Positions 7,525 through 16,272 of a DNA stretch of 22,721 nt are shown here, one piece after another (position 1 is the first letter of the stretch; every line of letters begins with the position of its first letter). The DNA comes from a virus. The stretch lies in the IMG/VR virus record IMGVR_UViG_3300011261_000266, positions 1 through 22,721 of that record; one strand, 5' to 3'. Below the pieces are notes generated by a model. It did no database searches, had not been told where the DNA came from, and saw only the letters and a program-made list of their open reading frames with translations. The translations under genes were made by a program, and so were the position numbers.

Positions 7525-7809
7525 TTACCTGCCTGCTCTTTCTTGAGCAGGTATATTTGAGTAATCTCCTGACCACTTCCCTTCGTTTTCATAGTAATAG
7601 AGCGCGTCTTTTAATTTTTGCTCGTATTGAATCTTTTCTAACTCGTTTTTTTGTCGGTACTTAGAAATGACTTCATCTATTTTTCTTTCTTGAGAGTGTT
7701 TATGGTTTCGCTCGCTTTTTTTAGACGATACTTTCCCTACGAAAAAAGTGGCGATGGCTATTAAAAACATAACAGCTGTTGTGACCATTGAGGCTTCTTT
7801 TATTTTCAT
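7525..7809 (-). CDS. One-span membrane protein with charged helical tail, 94 aa
   Basis: The ATG at 7809 is preceded by AGGA at about eight bases. Residues 8-26 are a transmembrane span (MVTTAVMFLIAIATFFVGK), followed by a strongly charged, probably coiled-coil region (SSKKSERNHKHSQERKIDEV to about residue 70). The C-terminus is short and polar (YSNIPAQERAGR). It is the last gene of the leftward late operon, downstream of the tail fibres, where lysis genes such as inner-membrane spanins are often found, and the topology fits. No endolysin is visible in the window, so the lysis role is a guess. It converges with the YqaJ gene. Confidence 0.6.
   Translation of the reverse strand: MKIKEASMVTTAVMFLIAIATFFVGKVSSKKSERNHKHSQERKIDEVISKYRQKNELEKIQYEQKLKDALYYYENEGKWSGDYSNIPAQERAGR
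7532..7551. terminator. Hairpin between convergent operons (weak terminator candidate)
   Basis: CCTGCTC (7532-7538) pairs with GAGCAGG (7545-7551) around a six-base loop. It lies 27 bases after the YqaJ stop and inside the last codons of the leftward gene. No long T-run follows on either strand, so termination would be partial. Confidence 0.3.
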
Positions 7810-7822
7810 AGTTTTTTCCTAG

Positions 7823-8818
7823 TTAGACAAAGTAAAATATGGTTTGATTTAAAAGGGTTCCGCTAGTGAATTCCGTATCAGTTACTGAGTTAAATATTTT
7901 ATTATCACCGCTTCTAGACAATAAGACATCTCCTACTGCACCCCTCACTCCAGCAAAAACTGAGGTGTATCCTACTCCAAGATTAATATTCGCGAATCCA
8001 CATGCTGAGGAGTATTCTGATAAAGTGGCAGGAGTAAAAGGAAGACCAGTGATAGTTGCTGCCCCAGTTTCAGATCCTTTTGAGGTAAGACTCACTCTAA
8101 ACCCAATGTAAACAATATTTCCAATGCGAGTATAATGCCCCTCTTGGGTAGAATATTCAATTCCTGTTGTTTCTCCTCCAAACTTGAGAACTGGAGTCCA
8201 AGTGCCAGTTTCATAGGCACTCATTATATTAGAGCCATCATCGAAAGTCAGTCCATCTGCGTAGACATTATCCCATGAGTTAGTAGCTGACCCTAAAGAA
8301 TCGGCCCTATCAGTTGAGGGGACTATTGGAGCAGCGGTTACTGAGATAGTTCCGGACCCATTAGGAGCAATTATGACATCTCCGTTAACATCCGTGCTTG
8401 AAAGAGTGTTTCCATTAAGCTCTAAATTATCTACAGTCAGTTGGGTTAGGCCCAGTACATTTGCATCTAAATTAACTGTTGCATTCGACCCAGCTCCACT
8501 GGTATTGACATTGGTTCCACCTAGAACTCCAACAACACCTGAACCATCAGGAGGTATGTTCCCTCCACTATCTCCAGCCAAAAACTGAACGTCACCCGTT
8601 GTCGCTCCTCCAAGCTTTATCCATACTCCGCTTGTTGTAGTTTTAGAAGTTAAATACCATAGATCATCGGATGAAGTATCATTCCAAAAATCTCTAACCT
8701 TGAAATTTCTATAATCGGTCGTTAATGGAGCTCTGTTGCGTCTAAATATACGAACGGGAACTTGATCATTGGCTGGATATTCGAGGGGAGACTGAGGTTG
8801 ATTATTGTTAGTGCTCAT
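7823..8818 (-). CDS. Tail fibre protein, paralogue of the tailspike C-terminal half
   Basis: 331 aa. The N-terminal about 85 residues include a virion-attachment-like segment (QVPVRIFRRNRAPLTTDYRN). Residues about 100-265 are the module also present in the upstream tailspike: GGTNVNTSGAGSNATVNLD, LTVDNLELNGNTLSSTD, VPSTDRADSLGSATNSWDNV, then GTWTPVLKFGG, typical of fibre shafts leading to a beta-sandwich tip. The last about 65 residues differ from the paralogue, consistent with a receptor-contact tip. The start overlaps the tailspike stop (ATGA) and has GGAGG nine bases upstream. It probably forms a second adhesin or a short fibre of the same tail. Confidence 0.75.
   Translation of the reverse strand: MSTNNNQPQSPLEYPANDQVPVRIFRRNRAPLTTDYRNFKVRDFWNDTSSDDLWYLTSKTTTSGVWIKLGGATTGDVQFLAGDSGGNIPPDGSGVVGVLGGTNVNTSGAGSNATVNLDANVLGLTQLTVDNLELNGNTLSSTDVNGDVIIAPNGSGTISVTAAPIVPSTDRADSLGSATNSWDNVYADGLTFDDGSNIMSAYETGTWTPVLKFGGETTGIEYSTQEGHYTRIGNIVYIGFRVSLTSKGSETGAATITGLPFTPATLSEYSSACGFANINLGVGYTSVFAGVRGAVGDVLLSRSGDNKIFNSVTDTEFTSGTLLNQTIFYFV
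8211..8522. repeat. Recombination-homogenised fibre module, copy in short fibre
   Basis: Bases 8211-8344 match 9200-9333 at 133 of 134 positions, and 8464-8522 match 9453-9511 at all 59. The 119 bp between the two tracts differ at many sites, mostly silent. This mosaic of identical and diverged blocks points to gene conversion. Confidence 0.9.
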
Positions 8819-10824
8819 GCAAAATACCCTCCCGTGACAGTTAAAATTGAATTGTTAGCGAAGTCAACATCCGAAAGTCCAGATGCCGTTCCAGAAGTGT
8901 CAGCTTCTTGTATTATAAGGGTGGTACTGGAATCCGCAAGAGCTACATAGGCCAGATATGCGGAAGATGTTAGGGTTATATTCGCGGACCTAGCCAAATT
9001 CCAATATACATCTCCTACAGAGGCAAACGGTAATCCTGTGATCGTCGCATTTCCCGTAGAAGAACCTTTGTTTGTAAGATTAAACACACACCTTATAAAA
9101 ACAAAATTTCCAATTCGGGTATAAGTCCCAGATTGATTTGAATAGGTAATTCCTACGCTCGCCCCTCCAAACTCTAAAACAGGAGTCCAACTTCCGGTCT
9201 CATAGGCACTCATTATATTAGAGCCGTCATCGAAAGTCAGTCCATCTGCGTAGACATTATCCCATGAGTTAGTAGCTGACCCTAAAGAATCGGCCCTATC
9301 AGTTGAGGGGACTATTGGAGCAGCGGTTACTGAAACTGTTCCCGATCCGTCGGGAGCTATTATCACATCCCCATTAGTATCAGTACTGGACAAAGTGTTT
9401 CCGTTAAATTCTAAATTATCTACTGTCAGATCCGTTAACCCCAGTACATCTCCATCTAAATTAACTGTTGCATTCGACCCAGCTCCACTGGTATTGACAT
9501 TGGTTCCACCTGCTAGGGTTAGAACTCCTGCCGCCGGCGTAGCAGTTCCTGAATCTGTAGGATACGAATTAGCGACCGTTCCTCCGCCCGCTTCTAGGTT
9601 TAAACTATTCGCTCCAGGAGTAAACGTAACTGTCCCTCCACTAGAGGTTAAAGAAGCAAAAGCTGGATCTGCTCCAGTAGCTCCAATCAATAACTCTCCA
9701 TTTGAACCAGCTGCAGTGGCCACCATATTAGTGGTAGCTCCCTGACCTAGAATGACTCCATGGTCGGTGTAATCAGATTTATAGGTGGCTGAATAGGAAT
9801 TTCCTCCAGCTATAGTCAGTGTACCTGCAATATTATTGTCGTCAGGAAATCCGATGGAAGTTAAAGTTAATGTTCCCGTTCCTGTACCACCTAGAGCTGG
9901 ATTATTTGTAGATTGAATCTCTCCATTTGAAATAGAAAAATTTCCAGTGGAGTTAAAAGTTAAGGCTTGTGCTGCCCCTCCTCTAAAATTGGTGTCTATC
10001 GCAAATCCTGTTAGAGATCCCCCAATAGTGACAGAGTTAGCAAATTTAACTCCGTTTTGAAAGAAAACATCTCCCGCTCCCTGCATATTGACTGGACAAT
10101 TTACATTGCATGTATCAAATCTAAGAAACCCGGATGCATCTCCATTGAGTTCCATAACTTTGGAGCCCGCTCCCATTTCTACATTTAAAAACTTTATGGT
10201 GGAAGACCCTGTAACATTATTTACCACTCCATCTTCAGTGCTCGCCTCAACGCAGTTATCCATTAATAATTCTCCCGTCCAATTGGGAAGATTAAAAATA
10301 TATCCGTCTGTGATGACTACGAAACAGTTATTAATGTTGAAAGTAGTAGTACCCGCCGCAGCAGAATTAAGGACATCGGTGGCTGTTACTAACACAAATC
10401 CATCAAAATTAACTGTTCCTGATGTAGGAGGGGTATGAACTCCCACTATCGTTGGCTCTCCATCACTACCTTGCAATGTAATTGAGGAAGTAATATTTAA
10501 ATCCTCAGTATATGTTCCAGGTTGTACCCAAATCATATTAACTCCGCCCGCTAAAGTGGCAGCATCTATTGCTGATTGAATAGTGGTATATCCTGCCTGA
10601 CCTGAAGGGCCTACCACATATGGGGTAATTGGATAGCCGCCTACAGAAGAATCTACAGTAAGTGTATTAGTTCCGGGATCTCCAGTGATCGTGGTGGTAT
10701 CTCCACCAAGTATATTAATATTAAAAGCCCCATCTGGTCCAACGGGACCTCCTGTATTTCCAGTAAGAGTTTCGATATCACTTCCAGCAGAGCTAAAGTC
10801 TGTCAACGGTCCTTGCTGCGACAT
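8815..10824 (-). CDS. Tailspike/tail fibre with beta-helix domain
   Basis: 669 aa. A short N-terminal glycine-rich part (residues 1-60, GGPVGPDGAFNINILGGDTT) precedes a pectate-lyase-like right-handed beta-helix beginning YTTIQSAIDAATLAGG (about 79-94) and WVQPGTYTEDLNI (99-111), with regular short strands and Asn/Gly turns to about residue 340. A linker then leads to the shaft module shared with the next gene (about 435-560) and a distinct C-terminal beta domain ending VTGGYFA. Such proteins bind and sometimes cut surface polysaccharide; I cannot identify catalytic residues. GGAGG lies before the ATG, which overlaps the upstream stop as TAATG. Confidence 0.8.
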   Translation of the reverse strand: MSQQGPLTDFSSAGSDIETLTGNTGGPVGPDGAFNINILGGDTTTITGDPGTNTLTVDSSVGGYPITPYVVGPSGQAGYTTIQSAIDAATLAGGVNMIWVQPGTYTEDLNITSSITLQGSDGEPTIVGVHTPPTSGTVNFDGFVLVTATDVLNSAAAGTTTFNINNCFVVITDGYIFNLPNWTGELLMDNCVEASTEDGVVNNVTGSSTIKFLNVEMGAGSKVMELNGDASGFLRFDTCNVNCPVNMQGAGDVFFQNGVKFANSVTIGGSLTGFAIDTNFRGGAAQALTFNSTGNFSISNGEIQSTNNPALGGTGTGTLTLTSIGFPDDNNIAGTLTIAGGNSYSATYKSDYTDHGVILGQGATTNMVATAAGSNGELLIGATGADPAFASLTSSGGTVTFTPGANSLNLEAGGGTVANSYPTDSGTATPAAGVLTLAGGTNVNTSGAGSNATVNLDGDVLGLTDLTVDNLEFNGNTLSSTDTNGDVIIAPDGSGTVSVTAAPIVPSTDRADSLGSATNSWDNVYADGLTFDDGSNIMSAYETGSWTPVLEFGGASVGITYSNQSGTYTRIGNFVFIRCVFNLTNKGSSTGNATITGLPFASVGDVYWNLARSANITLTSSAYLAYVALADSSTTLIIQEADTSGTASGLSDVDFANNSILTVTGGYFA
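9200..9511. repeat. Recombination-homogenised fibre module, copy in tailspike
   Basis: Partner of 8211-8522, with identical tracts at 9200-9333 (one mismatch) and 9453-9511 (none). The intervening 9334-9452 is diverged. Orientation is the same in both genes, so recombination between them would delete about 1 kb and fuse the fibres. Confidence 0.9.
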
Positions 10825-11178: not shown

Positions 11179-11961
11179 TTATGATAAAAAGTTTTCAAGA
11201 GTTACATATTTATTTATTACAAAGTACATGTCGTAATTGCTAGTTATCGAAACAGTCCCACTTCCAGATAACTTTACTGCTTGCACTCTAATATCGGACT
11301 TACTAGGGGCTTGTATGGGAAAATTAAATGGTTGATAAAAGGACGCATCATTAATGTTAAGTCTAAATCGAGTTATCCACGCCCCCCCCTCTGTCCGAGT
11401 TTGTAATGTAACTAAAGCTCGATCATTATTTTCTGTACCTAGAGTCAAATTTTTAATAAAACCTGTGTATCCGGCAGGAACGGTACATTGACTCTTAAGA
11501 GTAGATCCTAAAGAAGCACTGATCTTTGCTTGAGGAGTTCCTGCGGTAGAAGCTGTCGCCGTAATCGTTCCCGCATTAACTCCGGCATTTCCCACCGAAC
11601 TTACAACCATTCGATTGATTCTAATAAAGCTGCTTTGGGTGGCGACCTCGGTAATCCCGTTCATAACAACCTCTTCTTTTAGAGATTGGTAATTATCATC
11701 TAATCCAAATATAGTGATAGTACGAGCTCCATCTCCTAAAGGATTTCCGTCGTCATCGGAGCTCGAAGAAACTATATCCATTTTTTCAGCTGAGGCAAGA
11801 AAGGAAAGTACTCCTCCTTCTTCCCACACATCTTCAGTGATGGTATCGATATCGGGGTTTATGGCATAGATGGTTTGTCCAGCTACTCCAAAAACTTTGT
11901 TAGCCGCTACTTTTAAATCAAAAGTCCAAGGCTCCCACGGAAGTTCGTTTTGTATACTCAT
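11179..11961 (-). CDS. Virion structural protein, 260 aa
   Basis: The product opens MSIQNELPWEPWTFDLKVAA and contains DVWEEGGVLSFLASAEKMDI and SSSSDDDGNPLGDGARTITI. I recognise this pattern from predicted structural proteins of aquatic and uncultured podoviruses, annotated there only as structural. The rest is beta-rich, with VNAGTITATASTAGTP, AGYTGFIKNLTLGTENNDRA and a C-terminal jelly-roll-like part (SDIRVQAVKLSGSGTVSIT). It precedes the 114-aa gene by 10 bp. It is now the first gene of the leftward fibre operon after the rightward cassette, and its original upstream neighbour survives only as a fragment. Confidence 0.7.
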   Translation of the reverse strand: MSIQNELPWEPWTFDLKVAANKVFGVAGQTIYAINPDIDTITEDVWEEGGVLSFLASAEKMDIVSSSSDDDGNPLGDGARTITIFGLDDNYQSLKEEVVMNGITEVATQSSFIRINRMVVSSVGNAGVNAGTITATASTAGTPQAKISASLGSTLKSQCTVPAGYTGFIKNLTLGTENNDRALVTLQTRTEGGAWITRFRLNINDASFYQPFNFPIQAPSKSDIRVQAVKLSGSGTVSITSNYDMYFVINKYVTLENFLS

Positions 11962-12109: not shown

Positions 12110-12161
12110 CTAAATTTTATTATTACTTTCTTTCCATTTACTACGAAAATTATTTTAATTC

Positions 12162-12189
12162 TTGGGGGAATAAGGGTTTGTGGTATAAT
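12162..12189 (+). promoter_or_regulatory. Extended -10 promoter of the rightward cassette
   Basis: TGGTATAAT at 12181-12189 is a perfect extended -10 (TGn plus TATAAT). A poor -35 (TTGGGG, 12162-12167) lies 16 bp upstream, as is common for extended -10 promoters. The first gene of the cassette begins 32 bp downstream of the -10. Confidence 0.65.
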
Positions 12190-12220
12190 TGGCTGTAAAT
12201 ACGGTAAATGGAGGAAGAAA

Positions 12221-12403
12221 ATGGTTAAGCAAAAGAAAGTTACGTTTGAAATGCCAAAAGAATTAGCCGCTAAAATTAAAGGCTACTCGGCTCTTTCTAA
12301 TATTCCTATGCGGCTTTTTATTGTTCGCACCTTATGGGATAAAATTCGTAAGATAGAAAAGGGTGAAGACAAGACCATTAAAATAGAAAAGAAGGAGACA
12401 TAA
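12221..12403 (+). CDS. Ribbon-helix-helix DNA-binding protein, 60 aa
   Basis: The start is fixed by GGAGGA five bases before ATG 12221; a longer open frame upstream is non-coding leader. The protein begins MVKQKKVTFEMPKELAAKIK, with a basic beta-strand (KKVTFEM), helix A (KELAAKIKGYSALSN), a turn at Pro, helix B (MRLFIVRTLWDKIRKIEKG) and a basic tail. This is the Arc/CopG fold order, in which paired strands enter the DNA major groove. It is the first gene of an opposing cassette directly under the extended -10 promoter, so it probably controls that promoter. It could also be the DNA-binding half of a toxin-antitoxin-like pair with the small membrane proteins. Both are inference. Confidence 0.65.
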   Translation: MVKQKKVTFEMPKELAAKIKGYSALSNIPMRLFIVRTLWDKIRKIEKGEDKTIKIEKKET

Positions 12404-12404
12404 A

Positions 12405-12614
12405 ATGGATTGGTATCAAATTTTAGCGCTGGTAGGACCTACGGTAACTCTTTTCTTATGGAGTCGTAGTGAATCTAGAGCTGATTCCAGGAGAGTTGAA
12501 TACTTAGTCGCCGCTATGAATACAGAAATGAAAGACTTTCATGGGCGTCTATGCAGTATTGAAGCTCAGTGGAAGGGAGTTAAATTAGAAAAAGACAAAT
12601 CGCAAGAAAGTTAA
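12405..12614 (+). CDS. Small one-span membrane protein with helical tail, cassette paralogue 1
   Basis: 69 aa beginning MDWYQILALVGPTVTLFLW, a single N-terminal transmembrane span (about 3-19), followed by SRSESRADSRRVEYLVAAMN and a helical charged tail to the end. AAGGAG lies seven bases before the ATG, and the stop of the regulator is one base away. The leader and first codons (AAGGAG, seven bases, ATGGATTGG) are repeated almost exactly at the next gene, showing tandem duplication. The basic residues just after the span put the tail in the cytoplasm. No family recognised. Confidence 0.7.
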   Translation: MDWYQILALVGPTVTLFLWSRSESRADSRRVEYLVAAMNTEMKDFHGRLCSIEAQWKGVKLEKDKSQES

Positions 12615-12634
12615 ACAAAAAAAGGAGAGCTAAA

Positions 12635-12823
12635 ATGGATTGGACACAAGTTTTTGTAATTCTAGGGGTTTTTGGAGGAGCATTTTTATATTTGTCTATC
12701 AAAGTCGATGGAATAAGAAAAGATGTACACAATGTGGATAAACGACTTACGCGTATTGAAGATAGATTAGAGTTTTCAAGCAAAGTGGTGTATGTACAAC
12801 ACGAAAAAATTAAAGAAAATTAA
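12635..12823 (+). CDS. Small one-span membrane protein with coiled-coil tail, cassette paralogue 2
   Basis: 62 aa. The span is WTQVFVILGVFGGAFLYLSI (3-22), then IKVDGIRKDVHNVDKRLTRI and EDRLEFSSKVV, a heptad-like amphipathic helix likely to pair with itself or its paralogues. AGGAG lies seven bases upstream. Start codons MDW match paralogue 1 and the layout matches paralogue 3. The tail pattern (hxxhxxRLxxhExxL) is shared with paralogue 3 (DSRLSKVEGYI), so hetero-oligomers are plausible. Function unknown. Confidence 0.7.
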   Translation: MDWTQVFVILGVFGGAFLYLSIKVDGIRKDVHNVDKRLTRIEDRLEFSSKVVYVQHEKIKEN

Positions 12824-12848
12824 TACTTAGAGAAGGAGGAGATGTAAG

Positions 12849-13067
12849 ATGGATGTAAATATAATTATTGGAGTGTGCACGGTCATTACCACCGTGGGAG
12901 CGCTAATGGGATTTATGGGCAAAAGATTCGACAAAATAGAAGTAAAATTGGAAAAAATTTCTTTGGATTTAAGACAATTAGATTCACGCCTTTCTAAAGT
13001 GGAAGGCTATATCGAAAGAGATTTAGTAAGTAAATATAGATCTTCCCCACCTACGGGAAGTGAGTAA
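12849..13067 (+). CDS. Small one-span membrane protein with coiled-coil tail, cassette paralogue 3
   Basis: 72 aa. The span is VNIIIGVCTVITTVGALMGF (3-22), then KRFDKIEVKLEKISLDLRQL and DSRLSKVEGYIERD, a clear coiled coil, ending in a flexible KYRSSPPTGSE tail. AAGGAGG lies nine bases upstream. It is the most diverged of the three in its span but has the same architecture and MD start. Holin accessory, superinfection exclusion or an abortive-infection pore are possible roles for such a family; nothing in the sequence selects one. Confidence 0.7.
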   Translation: MDVNIIIGVCTVITTVGALMGFMGKRFDKIEVKLEKISLDLRQLDSRLSKVEGYIERDLVSKYRSSPPTGSE

Positions 13068-13083
13068 AAAAGGAGGAAAACTG

Positions 13084-13128
13084 ATGGAAGAAATAGTGAG
13101 AGAATTAGTTGATGAAATCATTGGATAA
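13084..13128 (+). CDS. 14-aa micro-protein at the end of the cassette
   Basis: ATG 13084 follows GGAGG at spacing seven, as good a site as those of the larger cassette genes. It encodes MEEIVRELVDEIIG and stops with TAA. The peptide is an amphipathic acidic helix that could pair with the coiled coils encoded upstream. It may be a real micro-protein or the remaining start of a fourth, truncated paralogue. Confidence 0.4.
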   Translation: MEEIVRELVDEIIG

Positions 13129-13210
13129 TATATAGTGTTATCTTTATTATAAAAGATTACTTAATTCCTTTCCTTTATGGGATTTTCAAAACACTTAAAA
13201 AATCCAAAAG

Positions 13211-13239
13211 AGAGAAAAAAGAAATCCTTTCTCAGGATT
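13211..13239 (-). terminator. Leftward intrinsic terminator after the ejection-type gene
   Basis: On the minus strand AATCCT (13239-13234) and AGGATT (13228-13223) form a six-bp stem with a five-base loop, followed by TCTTTTTTCTCTC. The hairpin overlaps the stop codon of the 829-aa gene. If it works, the fibre genes beyond the cassette need their own promoter or readthrough. Confidence 0.55.
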
Positions 13240-15727
13240 AAGCCGATCGAATTTGTTTAAATTCCTTAGCTGTGAATCCCTTTTTTGTTTTGATCTTTTC
13301 ATATTCCTTGAGTAATTCTCCGCCTTTTTTAGATTTTAAAGATGCCGAAGCTCGAGATTTTCTTATCTTTTTGATAACTGCCGAAGTGATGGTGCTGGAT
13401 AGAGCTCCCACGGGGTGAGCCCTCCCACTAATAGAACTCAATCCGGCGACGCTTACTAAAGGAGCTTTCACAGCAGTCGGAAGCTTAATTCCAAAACCTT
13501 CTTGTAGTCCTTGATCAAGAGCTCCTAGAACCAATCCGGCTATAGTCTCAGTCTTCCAGTTTCTTAAAACCTTCTCCAGATATTTGTTAAAAAAAGTCCG
13601 CATTTCTTTGGGAGAAGAGATATCTGGAGGATTCTTTATTTTTTCCAGAGCCTGCGCGGCTTCTTTGGCGCTACTGGGTTTAGCCCCTTTTGTCACTAAT
13701 AAGGTCTCCACGGCAGCGGGACCTTCTTTCGTGGCTTTAGAACCAGCTTCCTCTATTTTCTTTATTGCAGTTTTAGAAATATTTCTTTCCCCGTGGGAAA
13801 TTTTATCTCCAATACGAATTAAATCCTTAGAGAAAAGATTGTTTTCTTTTTTGATATCATCTACCCACTTCCTATAATAAGTCCCCTTAGGACCCTTCAA
13901 AGACGCCAGAACCTTACGCTTTTGGTCTTGAACTGTGACAGCAGCTTCCAGACCCTTAATTCTTTTTTCTAATTGATGGAGAATCTCTGGTCCCGCTTGG
14001 GAAGCGTTCATACGAGACATCGGAAGGGCCATTTCTTGACGAACATGTTTTCTCAAATCTTTGTAAGCATTTAGATATTCTCGATTAATATTTAAGAAAG
14101 TGTCTTTTGCTACCGATTCTGGAAGAGTTCCTCTAATTAGATCTTTTTTTGATTTTTCAAGAAAAGTGTTCATCAATTTGTCATTCGTAGCGAACTTCTT
14201 CTTGACCTCAGGCCCCCCTTCCATTACATCTTTAACTAGAGTCTCTAGGGACTTTTCCACTTGAGATCCAATTTGTTGTGGAGAAGGTGGAAGCTTTCCA
14301 TATTTAATTTCGTGACCAAATTCATAGTTTTGTGCATGGAGTTTTTCTAGTTTTTGTTGAGAATTGCGAAGAGCTACCCCGGTTTCTTTGAATAGATTCT
14401 TTTCTACTTGTTGAATTTGGGTTCGATTTTTTTCTATTAAAGGAGTAAGTCTTTCTCTTCGTTCGATTAAACCAGTTTTTTTAATTTTTGGAGGCTTCAT
14501 ATATTCTTCAATGGGAGTTTCCGATAAAGCCTTGCTTTCTTTTTTAAATCTTTTTTCGGCTTCTTTTGGAGCCTCAGATCTACCCTTGATAGTTTCTCCC
14601 TTACCCTTCACATCAGGGGATACTTTTTGCTGTGTCTTTTTGGCTGTTTGATGAGCATCTTCCCTTAAAAACTTACTAAATTGTCGTACATCTTCTTTTT
14701 CCCCTTTCTGCAAAACTTCCGTAGACAAGCCACTTTTTTCTGCTCGTTTAAGTACTGCTTCCGAAGCTTCAGCGGCAGCTTTGCCAGTAAATTTCATTTC
14801 TTTAGCAAGAGCATTCCGGAACAATTTCGCTACTGGTTTAATAGCCGCTTCTCCTAGAGGAATAAGACCTCCGACAAGAGATTGAACCCCTATAAGGGGA
14901 AGATCAACTGGCTTGTCTGTGCCCAAAGTTCTAACTGCTTCAGCGACCATGGCATCTCCACCAAAAAACGCTGCTCCTTTAACCGCTTTCGCTACTAACG
15001 ATCCTTTTCCTAGAGCTGCTGGAATGAAAGGTAATTCTGAGGCAAATCGAGAGAAACCGGCTATTCCTGGAGGGGGCGCTAGATTAGGAGTAGCTTTTTC
15101 TCGGAATCTTTCTTCTAGTGCCTTTCCGATAAAAGGCACACCTGCTACTTTTGTACGTGCTTCGTGTTGTTTTACGAGCCCCGGAAGGATTTCCCTCAGT
15201 TGAGATTGTAATTCATTGGGCAAATTTTCAATGTCATCAGGATCCAAAGTTAGAATTTCTTCTAATGAGAATTCATCTAAAGAAGTGGCAGTCTTGGATT
15301 TTTCGGAGGAGCGTTTAGTAAGTTTTTTAGACTCCGGAGTTTCTTTCTCTTTAAATAAATCCCAAACACGAGCAGGTGTAGTGCCTTCTCCCAGAGACTC
15401 ATATTGACGGAAGGCCATCTCTTCAGCAGTGGCTCTTGGATAACCTTTTTCTAGGTTAGAGATATAAAGAGAATTAATATCATCCATGATATCAGATCTA
15501 TCAATATAAGATGATCTACCGGTATTCTTAGCGGTAGAAGCAAGTCTACTTTTTGCTTCATCTTTATATTTTTGGATCTCTTGTTGCCTTTTTAATCCGG
15601 ATGTAAGATTTCTAACTTTTTGTTCCGCTAAAGCTTGCAATCCTTCTCCTAAGAAACTTCCCGTTGCTTGTCCTAGGTTTTGAGCTAATGAAGGAGCGGT
15701 TGGAGATGCATCTCTATAAATAGTCAT
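13238..15727 (-). CDS. Large virion protein, putative DNA-ejection (internal) protein, 829 aa
   Basis: Short-tailed phages carry large helical proteins that leave the head and form a channel through the cell envelope. This product fits: a long, Lys/Glu-rich, helical protein with amphipathic or hydrophobic patches in an otherwise soluble chain (near 232-275, FIPAALGKGSLVAKAVKGAA, and near 740-770, VKAPLVSVAGLSSISG). It also has coiled-coil stretches about 370-480 and 560-640. The N-terminus is MTIYRDASPTAPSLAQNLGQ. No lysozyme or transglycosylase motif was found. It follows the 179-aa gene by five bases with no clear SD, so translation is probably coupled. The position after hub genes matches P22-type ejection genes. 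Confidence 0.6.
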   Translation of the reverse strand: MTIYRDASPTAPSLAQNLGQATGSFLGEGLQALAEQKVRNLTSGLKRQQEIQKYKDEAKSRLASTAKNTGRSSYIDRSDIMDDINSLYISNLEKGYPRATAEEMAFRQYESLGEGTTPARVWDLFKEKETPESKKLTKRSSEKSKTATSLDEFSLEEILTLDPDDIENLPNELQSQLREILPGLVKQHEARTKVAGVPFIGKALEERFREKATPNLAPPPGIAGFSRFASELPFIPAALGKGSLVAKAVKGAAFFGGDAMVAEAVRTLGTDKPVDLPLIGVQSLVGGLIPLGEAAIKPVAKLFRNALAKEMKFTGKAAAEASEAVLKRAEKSGLSTEVLQKGEKEDVRQFSKFLREDAHQTAKKTQQKVSPDVKGKGETIKGRSEAPKEAEKRFKKESKALSETPIEEYMKPPKIKKTGLIERRERLTPLIEKNRTQIQQVEKNLFKETGVALRNSQQKLEKLHAQNYEFGHEIKYGKLPPSPQQIGSQVEKSLETLVKDVMEGGPEVKKKFATNDKLMNTFLEKSKKDLIRGTLPESVAKDTFLNINREYLNAYKDLRKHVRQEMALPMSRMNASQAGPEILHQLEKRIKGLEAAVTVQDQKRKVLASLKGPKGTYYRKWVDDIKKENNLFSKDLIRIGDKISHGERNISKTAIKKIEEAGSKATKEGPAAVETLLVTKGAKPSSAKEAAQALEKIKNPPDISSPKEMRTFFNKYLEKVLRNWKTETIAGLVLGALDQGLQEGFGIKLPTAVKAPLVSVAGLSSISGRAHPVGALSSTITSAVIKKIRKSRASASLKSKKGGELLKEYEKIKTKKGFTAKEFKQIRSA

Positions 15728-15732
15728 TTTTA

Positions 15733-16272
15733 TTATGCCGGAGGTTGGGGAAAATTAACTTGGGGTCTTCCTGCATAGGCCGCTAAAGCTTTTCCGCCAC
15801 TTCCTGCTAAAGCCATAACTAATTTCTCTAGAAAACCTGACTGTCGAGGCGTAGTTGTAACTTCTTGTGTAGGAGATAATGCCGGATCTAATAGTTGCAT
15901 TAATTGTTGAAGTGCACCTTGTTGCATTCCAAGCCTTTGAGAAAAGATGTCTTCTTCAAATTCTTTACCTGCCTGACCTAACTGTTGCCCAAATGCAGAT
16001 GAACGTTGACTCCCTTCTCCTAATGATCCGGTAAATCTTTCAGCTATTGATGGGAGAGTCTTTTGCTCAAACCCTCTACGAGCCGGGGCAAAAAACGATT
16101 CAAAAGTTTCTTCGTCTCCCCCCAAAATCTTTCGGAGATTCTCTAGTCCCGTGGGAAGCTGCTGCTGCAAACCGCCACGAGCAGTTCCTAAGATCTGTTC
16201 TTGCTGAGGATTATATAAGGGGCGAGACTTAGTCTTTTCACCTTCACCTAGAAGAAAATCCATAAAGGCCAT
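15733..16272 (-). CDS. Virion protein upstream of the ejection-type gene, 179 aa
   Basis: The protein begins MAFMDFLLGEGEKTKSRPLY, followed by a Gln-rich helical region (NPQQEQILGTARGGLQQQLP), RGFEQKTLPSIAERFTGSLG and SSAFGQQLGQAGKEFEEDIF. This layout I know from proteins of unknown function beside ejection or tail genes of aquatic podoviruses. The C-terminal part has a small hydrophobic glycine-rich helix (FLEKLVMALAGSGGKALAAY) that could insert into membrane. It is likely a second, smaller ejection or internal protein. TAGGTG precedes the start. Role inferred from composition and place. Confidence 0.6.
   Translation of the reverse strand: MAFMDFLLGEGEKTKSRPLYNPQQEQILGTARGGLQQQLPTGLENLRKILGGDEETFESFFAPARRGFEQKTLPSIAERFTGSLGEGSQRSSAFGQQLGQAGKEFEEDIFSQRLGMQQGALQQLMQLLDPALSPTQEVTTTPRQSGFLEKLVMALAGSGGKALAAYAGRPQVNFPQPPA

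Follow-up and report, generated by a model that had tools for sequence, protein, structure and literature searches.

A putative mobile exclusion cassette in the sieA-like slot of an uncultured P22-like phage

Set into the late genes of the window (the whole stretch of DNA analysed here, an IMG/VR record that is linear and 22,721 bases long) is a short opposite-strand cassette in which a regulator gene is followed by genes for small one-span membrane proteins. In slot, orientation and gene order, the cassette matches the mnt-orf59-sieA operon of phage P22, the flanks being equated with P22 genes 16/20 and 9 through gene order rather than sequence. The explanation we prefer, a tentative one to which we give somewhat less than an even chance, is that the cassette is a mobile moron that occupies the sieA slot and uses its membrane proteins to keep out related phages that superinfect. 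Position, membrane anatomy and mosaicism, not sequence membership, suggest this reading. An earlier note on this DNA had raised the idea of exclusion, and the sieA slot lends it new support (PMC10883804), with function still being something that we infer. The virus itself is uncultured and P22-like, and its putative hosts are probably amoeba-dwelling relatives of Chlamydia.

The cassette comprises five ORFs, all on the + strand and each preceded by a purine-rich Shine–Dalgarno (SD) sequence, set between leftward genes at 11179-11961 and 13238-15727. The first encodes a 60 aa ribbon-helix-helix (RHH) DNA-binding protein (12221-12403), an Arc/Mnt-like putative autoregulator, and is followed by ORFa (69 aa; 12405-12614), ORFb (62 aa; 12635-12823), ORFc (72 aa; 12849-13067) and an ORF of 14 aa with a strong SD (MEEIVRELVDEIIG; 13084-13128). 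A 38-nt direct repeat is found at the gene starts at 12387, 12617 and 12831, with identities of 82% and 68%. Upstream of the RHH gene is an extended -10 promoter motif (TGGTATAAT; 12181-12189, + strand) with no good -35, from which transcription is predicted to start near 12196; it is identical in a sister phage, IMGVR_UViG_3300037245_004426 (L003, L020, L030 and G237 in our numbering; L030 for this region). The exact motif TGNTATAAT is present in five of 30 homologous cassette leaders where 0.5 would be expected, and in none on the other strand. That a rightward cassette with an extended -10 and SDs opposes the virion genes, as the earlier note had described, is borne out, the promoter being a motif rather than a mapped start. 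At 35%, the GC content of the cassette is below the 41-42% of the virion genes on its flanks, and no terminator was found 3' of the cassette on the + strand. The best candidate for an RHH operator palindrome, at 12113-12151, is a 13-nt inverted repeat (77%) and is unconvincing. Five other loci (L034, L064, L067, L074 and L092) have in common a leader motif upstream of the cassette, TTTACAATACCAT ... TGTGTCAAAAATATTTTA, that is a possible operator or promoter; the first gene of these cassettes encodes another small TM protein.

The comparison with P22 rests on gene order. In P22 the late genes run 1-8-5-4-10-26-14-7-20-16 and are followed by sieA, orf59 and mnt on the opposite strand, mnt being the first transcribed of the three, and then by arc, ant and the tailspike gene 9. 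In the window the order is coat, tail-adaptor-like and head-completion genes, a gene of 829 aa, the opposite-strand RHH and membrane genes, and the tail genes. The 829-aa virion gene (13238-15727, - strand) takes the place of P22 genes 20/16, which encode ejection proteins, by position; no family match was found for it in Pfam or PHROG. On the other flank is a gene for a virion or tail-side protein (11179-11961, - strand; phrog_8198), the first of the tail-fibre block. As in the P22 immI region (AF217253), the slot falls between ejection-protein genes and a tail gene, the operon runs against the late genes, an RHH gene heads it and an inner-membrane protein gene comes last. It is this mnt-orf59-sieA slot that we use in support of exclusion (PMC10883804). 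Unlike immI, the arc-ant arm is missing here, there being no ant-like gene between the phrog_8198 gene and the cassette, and the regulator is exchangeable among related phages. The sieA gene likewise lies between genes 16 and 9, or here their equivalents, opposite to the late genes, but SieA is a protein of ~160 aa with three spans, whereas the cassette proteins have 62-72 aa, one span and tandem coils. ORFa has no match in the phage collection that includes P22, and the cassette proteins are unlike SieA in sequence.

The earlier note had proposed a search of related phages for an RHH gene followed by repeated small TM genes, and a regulator gene followed by TM genes was found in many of them at the same site and in the same orientation. 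In 27 distinct cassettes the family members are flanked by tail-fibre cluster c2 on one side and by internal-virion clusters on the other, both encoded on the other strand, and large opposite-strand genes are present on both flanks in 39 of 99 groups. P22-type portals are encoded by 16 of 18 related records; in the case of the window the portal gene would lie beyond its end, and it is present in the sister phage. Elsewhere in the window, two adjacent tail-fibre genes (7823-8818 and 8815-10824, - strand) have a duplicated C-terminal module in common.

Comparison with the sister phage points to mobility. Over most of the genome, the two are 82-88% identical in DNA sequence (~85% for most of the backbone), but identity rises to 95% across 12393-12840 (+ strand), suggesting recent exchange of this block, and is 75% in the RHH region. 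From 12841 to 15823 there is no DNA similarity, and the 829-aa gene is swapped in the sister for genes of 434 and 340 aa. The ORFb genes differ by five synonymous and no nonsynonymous codon changes, the ORFa genes by five synonymous and three nonsynonymous changes; in addition, codon 19 of ORFa is TGG in the window and a TAG stop in the sister. ORFa and ORFb are thus common to two phages with different virion genes and so no pairing with a phage's own ejection proteins is visible. The proposal that the cassette is a moron holds up well on such features: it has its own promoter motif, opposite orientation within a late operon, lower GC and a mosaic boundary that is sharp when compared with the sister, and its gene order and site recur. 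Prophage expression, which the earlier note had envisaged, is unsupported: none of the 18 related records encodes a tyrosine integrase, and a serine recombinase is found in four of the 18, the sister phage included. Lysogeny of these phages is uncertain. Even a virulent phage could employ such genes at an early stage of infection, in the way that T4 does with Imm. Two further genes may be mentioned here. The sister has an extra ORF for a soluble coiled-coil protein (L003:5847-5999), the tail of which, RLEYSQKVVYVKH, resembles that of ORFb, RLEFSSKVVYVQH, as if the span had been lost. In another phage, G252, a gene (L134:13613-14179, - strand) for a beta-barrel protein of the outer membrane (OMP_b-brl) is a possible receptor-masking moron.

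The identity of the first gene product as an RHH protein, assigned earlier from the sequence, is confirmed by several methods. It matches the Arc-like repressor family phrog_582 (E 3.7e-5), and a profile of the cassette RHH proteins matches solved RHH structures (2kel, E 4.9e-5; 4aai, E 6e-4). The AlphaFold (AF2) model (pLDDT 84) has two helices, at residues 13-25 and 30-46, with no strand assigned in the monomer, and in Foldseek it resembles Arc of P22, CopG and the RHH antitoxins KacA, TacA1 and AtaR, with weak E values because the protein is tiny. The sister's RHH protein is 57-60% identical to that of the window. RHH proteins lead the cassettes of the window and several other phages, but the regulator at the head varies: an HTH_17-type protein leads ten loci (cluster c25; Pfam E 1.1e-9 and 5.6e-7 in the two tested) and a Phd/YefM-like protein leads one (E 2.5e-6, narrowly short of the curated cut-off). 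Regulators at the cassette head are exchanged among related phages.

ORFa, which carries the box EMKDFHGRLCSIE, is the founder of a protein family with a predicted N-out span, a cytoplasmic helix and a C-terminal box, MKDFHGRLCSIEERNK. In two alignments, A1 (16 members) and A5 (58 members), the order is an N-terminal span, W-x-R-x-E-x-x-x-D, a helix that varies in length and K-D-F-H-[G]-R-L-[C] near the C-terminus. Positive charge just after the span is seen in 114 of 125 members and the N-terminus is therefore predicted to be outside and the helix cytoplasmic. The AF2 model of ORFa is a single helix (residues 3-68), and we considered a possible zinc site formed by the H and C that are conserved in the box. 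One scan of IMG/VR for the C-terminal box returned 209 stretches, 196 of which encode ORFa relatives; none was found in 50,697 GenBank phage records or in GenBank plasmids. Pfam and PHROG scans of the RHH protein, ORFa, ORFb and ORFc recognised the RHH protein alone. The ORFa family is apparently undescribed, is missing from protein-family databases and is widespread in environmental phages. Tandem amplification, also proposed earlier, is real and exceeds the claim: 44 of the 87 loci examined have two to five members each by HMM, and one locus (L085) has nine TM-coil ORFs in a row. Other C-terminal boxes, DFHGRLCSIEERNK, RTDRLYEMFIDLLKERK and IKTVLIMKxIMPxELA, are found within the same arrays. 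Other copies of the ORFa family are located in early regions near recombination genes, far from the sieA-like slot.

Are the three membrane proteins of the window paralogues, as was first claimed? A single N-terminal span is predicted in each, and the layout of all three is the same. When scored against a family model built without the window phage or its sister, ORFa reached 84.7 bits and ORFb 24.9 bits, a value attained by none of 1000 shuffles that preserved the layout (span and tail composition kept). ORFa and ORFb belong to a single family, of which ORFb, with a coiled coil after its span, is a divergent member. ORFc scored 5.9 bits, which nine of the 1000 shuffles reached, and no relatives of it were found in IMG/VR; the three paralogues therefore become two, plus one protein of similar layout. 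The 14-codon ORF fares less well. It has a good SD but is absent at that place from the sister phage, in which the ORF after ORFb is a different one of 30 aa, and we found no other support for the micro-protein. We also considered it as a remnant of a longer lipoprotein, with nothing found in favour.

How might such a cassette exclude other phages? We propose that the RHH protein would bind near its own promoter, at ~12181-12196, and so control how strongly the operon is expressed, whatever the level of late leftward transcription. ORFa, ORFb and probably ORFc would be anchored in the inner membrane of the host, the N-terminus on the outside and the long helix inside, where the helix may drive the formation of homo- or hetero-oligomers and the conserved C-terminal box would hold a target. 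The most likely result would be that the membrane oligomers block the DNA-delivery conduit made by the ejection proteins of related phages, as SieA does. Tandem duplication and the swapping of members and regulators could then track changing targets. Counting for a moron with this function are the sieA slot, the P22-type portals, the 27 cassettes, the regulator leaders, the charge after the span, the 95% versus 85% identity and the copies in hosts; counting against exclusion are the lack of similarity to SieA, an ejection gene assigned by position only, the missing tyrosine integrase, the early-region copies, the stop in the sister's ORFa and the fact that ORFa and ORFb stay the same where the neighbouring virion genes differ. 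HK97 gp15 offers a parallel, being a small phage membrane protein that is encoded among the virion genes and blocks DNA entry. The likeness is that of a small membrane-protein moron among virion genes; the differences are that no sequence match was found, that HK97 is a siphovirus and that gp15 is a single gene. In PMC10883804, gp15 is cited as a superinfection-exclusion moron. Collinearity with P22 mnt-sieA turns anonymous small ORFs into a testable exclusion hypothesis and the conserved C-terminal box is a handle for finding the target.

The main rival to exclusion, which we regard as unlikely, is that the tandem one-span proteins act in lysis, as holins, antiholins or spanin-like proteins of an unusual kind in phages of hosts with little or no peptidoglycan, and that the RHH protein times lysis. 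It owes its standing to the fact that no endolysin family was recognised among 57 proteins of two related phages, nor Phage_lysozyme in the 18 related records. Lysis cassettes often include small TM genes in tandem, and the proteins of the cassette studied here, like holins and XhlA-type proteins, are small, have one span and a coiled coil and are often tandem. There are weak, non-significant matches to Rz-like and holin PHROGs, but nothing in Pfam or PHROG rises above noise for a holin family, the XhlA span sits at the C-terminus, and no relative of the cassette proteins proved to be a recognised holin when we looked for a known holin or lysis set among them. The promoter motif and opposite orientation within a late operon also argue against a lysis role, as do neighbours that are virion genes with no endolysin or spanin, the copies in early regions or alone on chlamydial contigs, and the strong conservation of a cytoplasmic C-terminal box, which is not a holin feature. 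In addition, the window has a separate Rz-like candidate lysis gene (7525-7809, - strand). This encodes a 94 aa protein with an N-terminal span and a coiled coil, adjoins the tail fibres, has weak matches to Rz-like spanins and to a gp16.7-like family and is conserved in the sister (L128:5574-5849).

Ranked below lysis, and improbable in our view, is a role in host takeover or replication, in which membrane-anchored coiled coils would hold proteins of the phage or the host to the inner membrane, different boxes having different partners. The presence of several C-terminal boxes on one scaffold within the same arrays fits this, as does the location of several copies next to RecT, YqaJ and recombinase genes, and phi29 p16.7 likewise has an N-terminal span and a coiled coil. 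The cassette proteins, however, are TM proteins without the DNA-binding C-terminal domain of p16.7, and a scaffold leaves regulator-led cassettes in the sieA slot unexplained. A toxin–antitoxin-like addiction module, with the RHH, HTH or Phd protein as antitoxin and the small membrane proteins as toxins, is very improbable: RHH and Phd/YefM are typical antitoxin folds and are encoded ahead of the membrane genes, and the RHH model resembles antitoxins in addition to Arc, but HTH_17 proteins occupy the same place, the RHH protein lacks a toxin-binding extension of normal length, many family copies have no adjoining regulator and the sister has an in-frame stop in ORFa with ORFb left intact.

Clues to the host come from a single scan of species genomes, which identified seven loci with ORFa relatives. 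Five of the seven genomes (G003-G007) belong to one GTDB phylum, that of the chlamydial MAGs, whilst the remaining two loci are on contigs labelled Bacteroidales and Alphaproteobacteria that are possibly misbinned. More genomes of the chlamydial phylum gave matches, the counts there being 7/234 with A1 and 8/234 with A5. Some chlamydial copies adjoin ordinary genes (a sugar epimerase gene and an ftsY-like gene, named by eye), away from other phage genes, and two chlamydial genomes have multi-copy relatives of a second box type, some of them in tandem. Chlamydia phages characterised to date are, as far as is known, small microviruses with ssDNA; the present analysis links to Chlamydiota a large set of environmental contigs that encode P22-type portals and have in common a gene family missing from Pfam, PHROGs and cultured phages. 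That orphan and tandem relatives occur on chlamydial chromosomes raises the possibility that hosts retain such genes for defence. A broader proposal, which we consider doubtful at present, is that the family is part of an undescribed system for exclusion or defence against phages, present in both Chlamydiota and their tailed phages, in which arrays of one-span proteins with a common helical scaffold and different address boxes would form mixed oligomers, regulators and members would be exchanged and relatives would reside on host chromosomes. In the chlamydial genomes G042 and G080 (L150-L153), dispersed and tandem TM-coil proteins end in RSDKLYEMFIDLLK, and the gene for one of these adjoins type III secretion sctRST-like genes.
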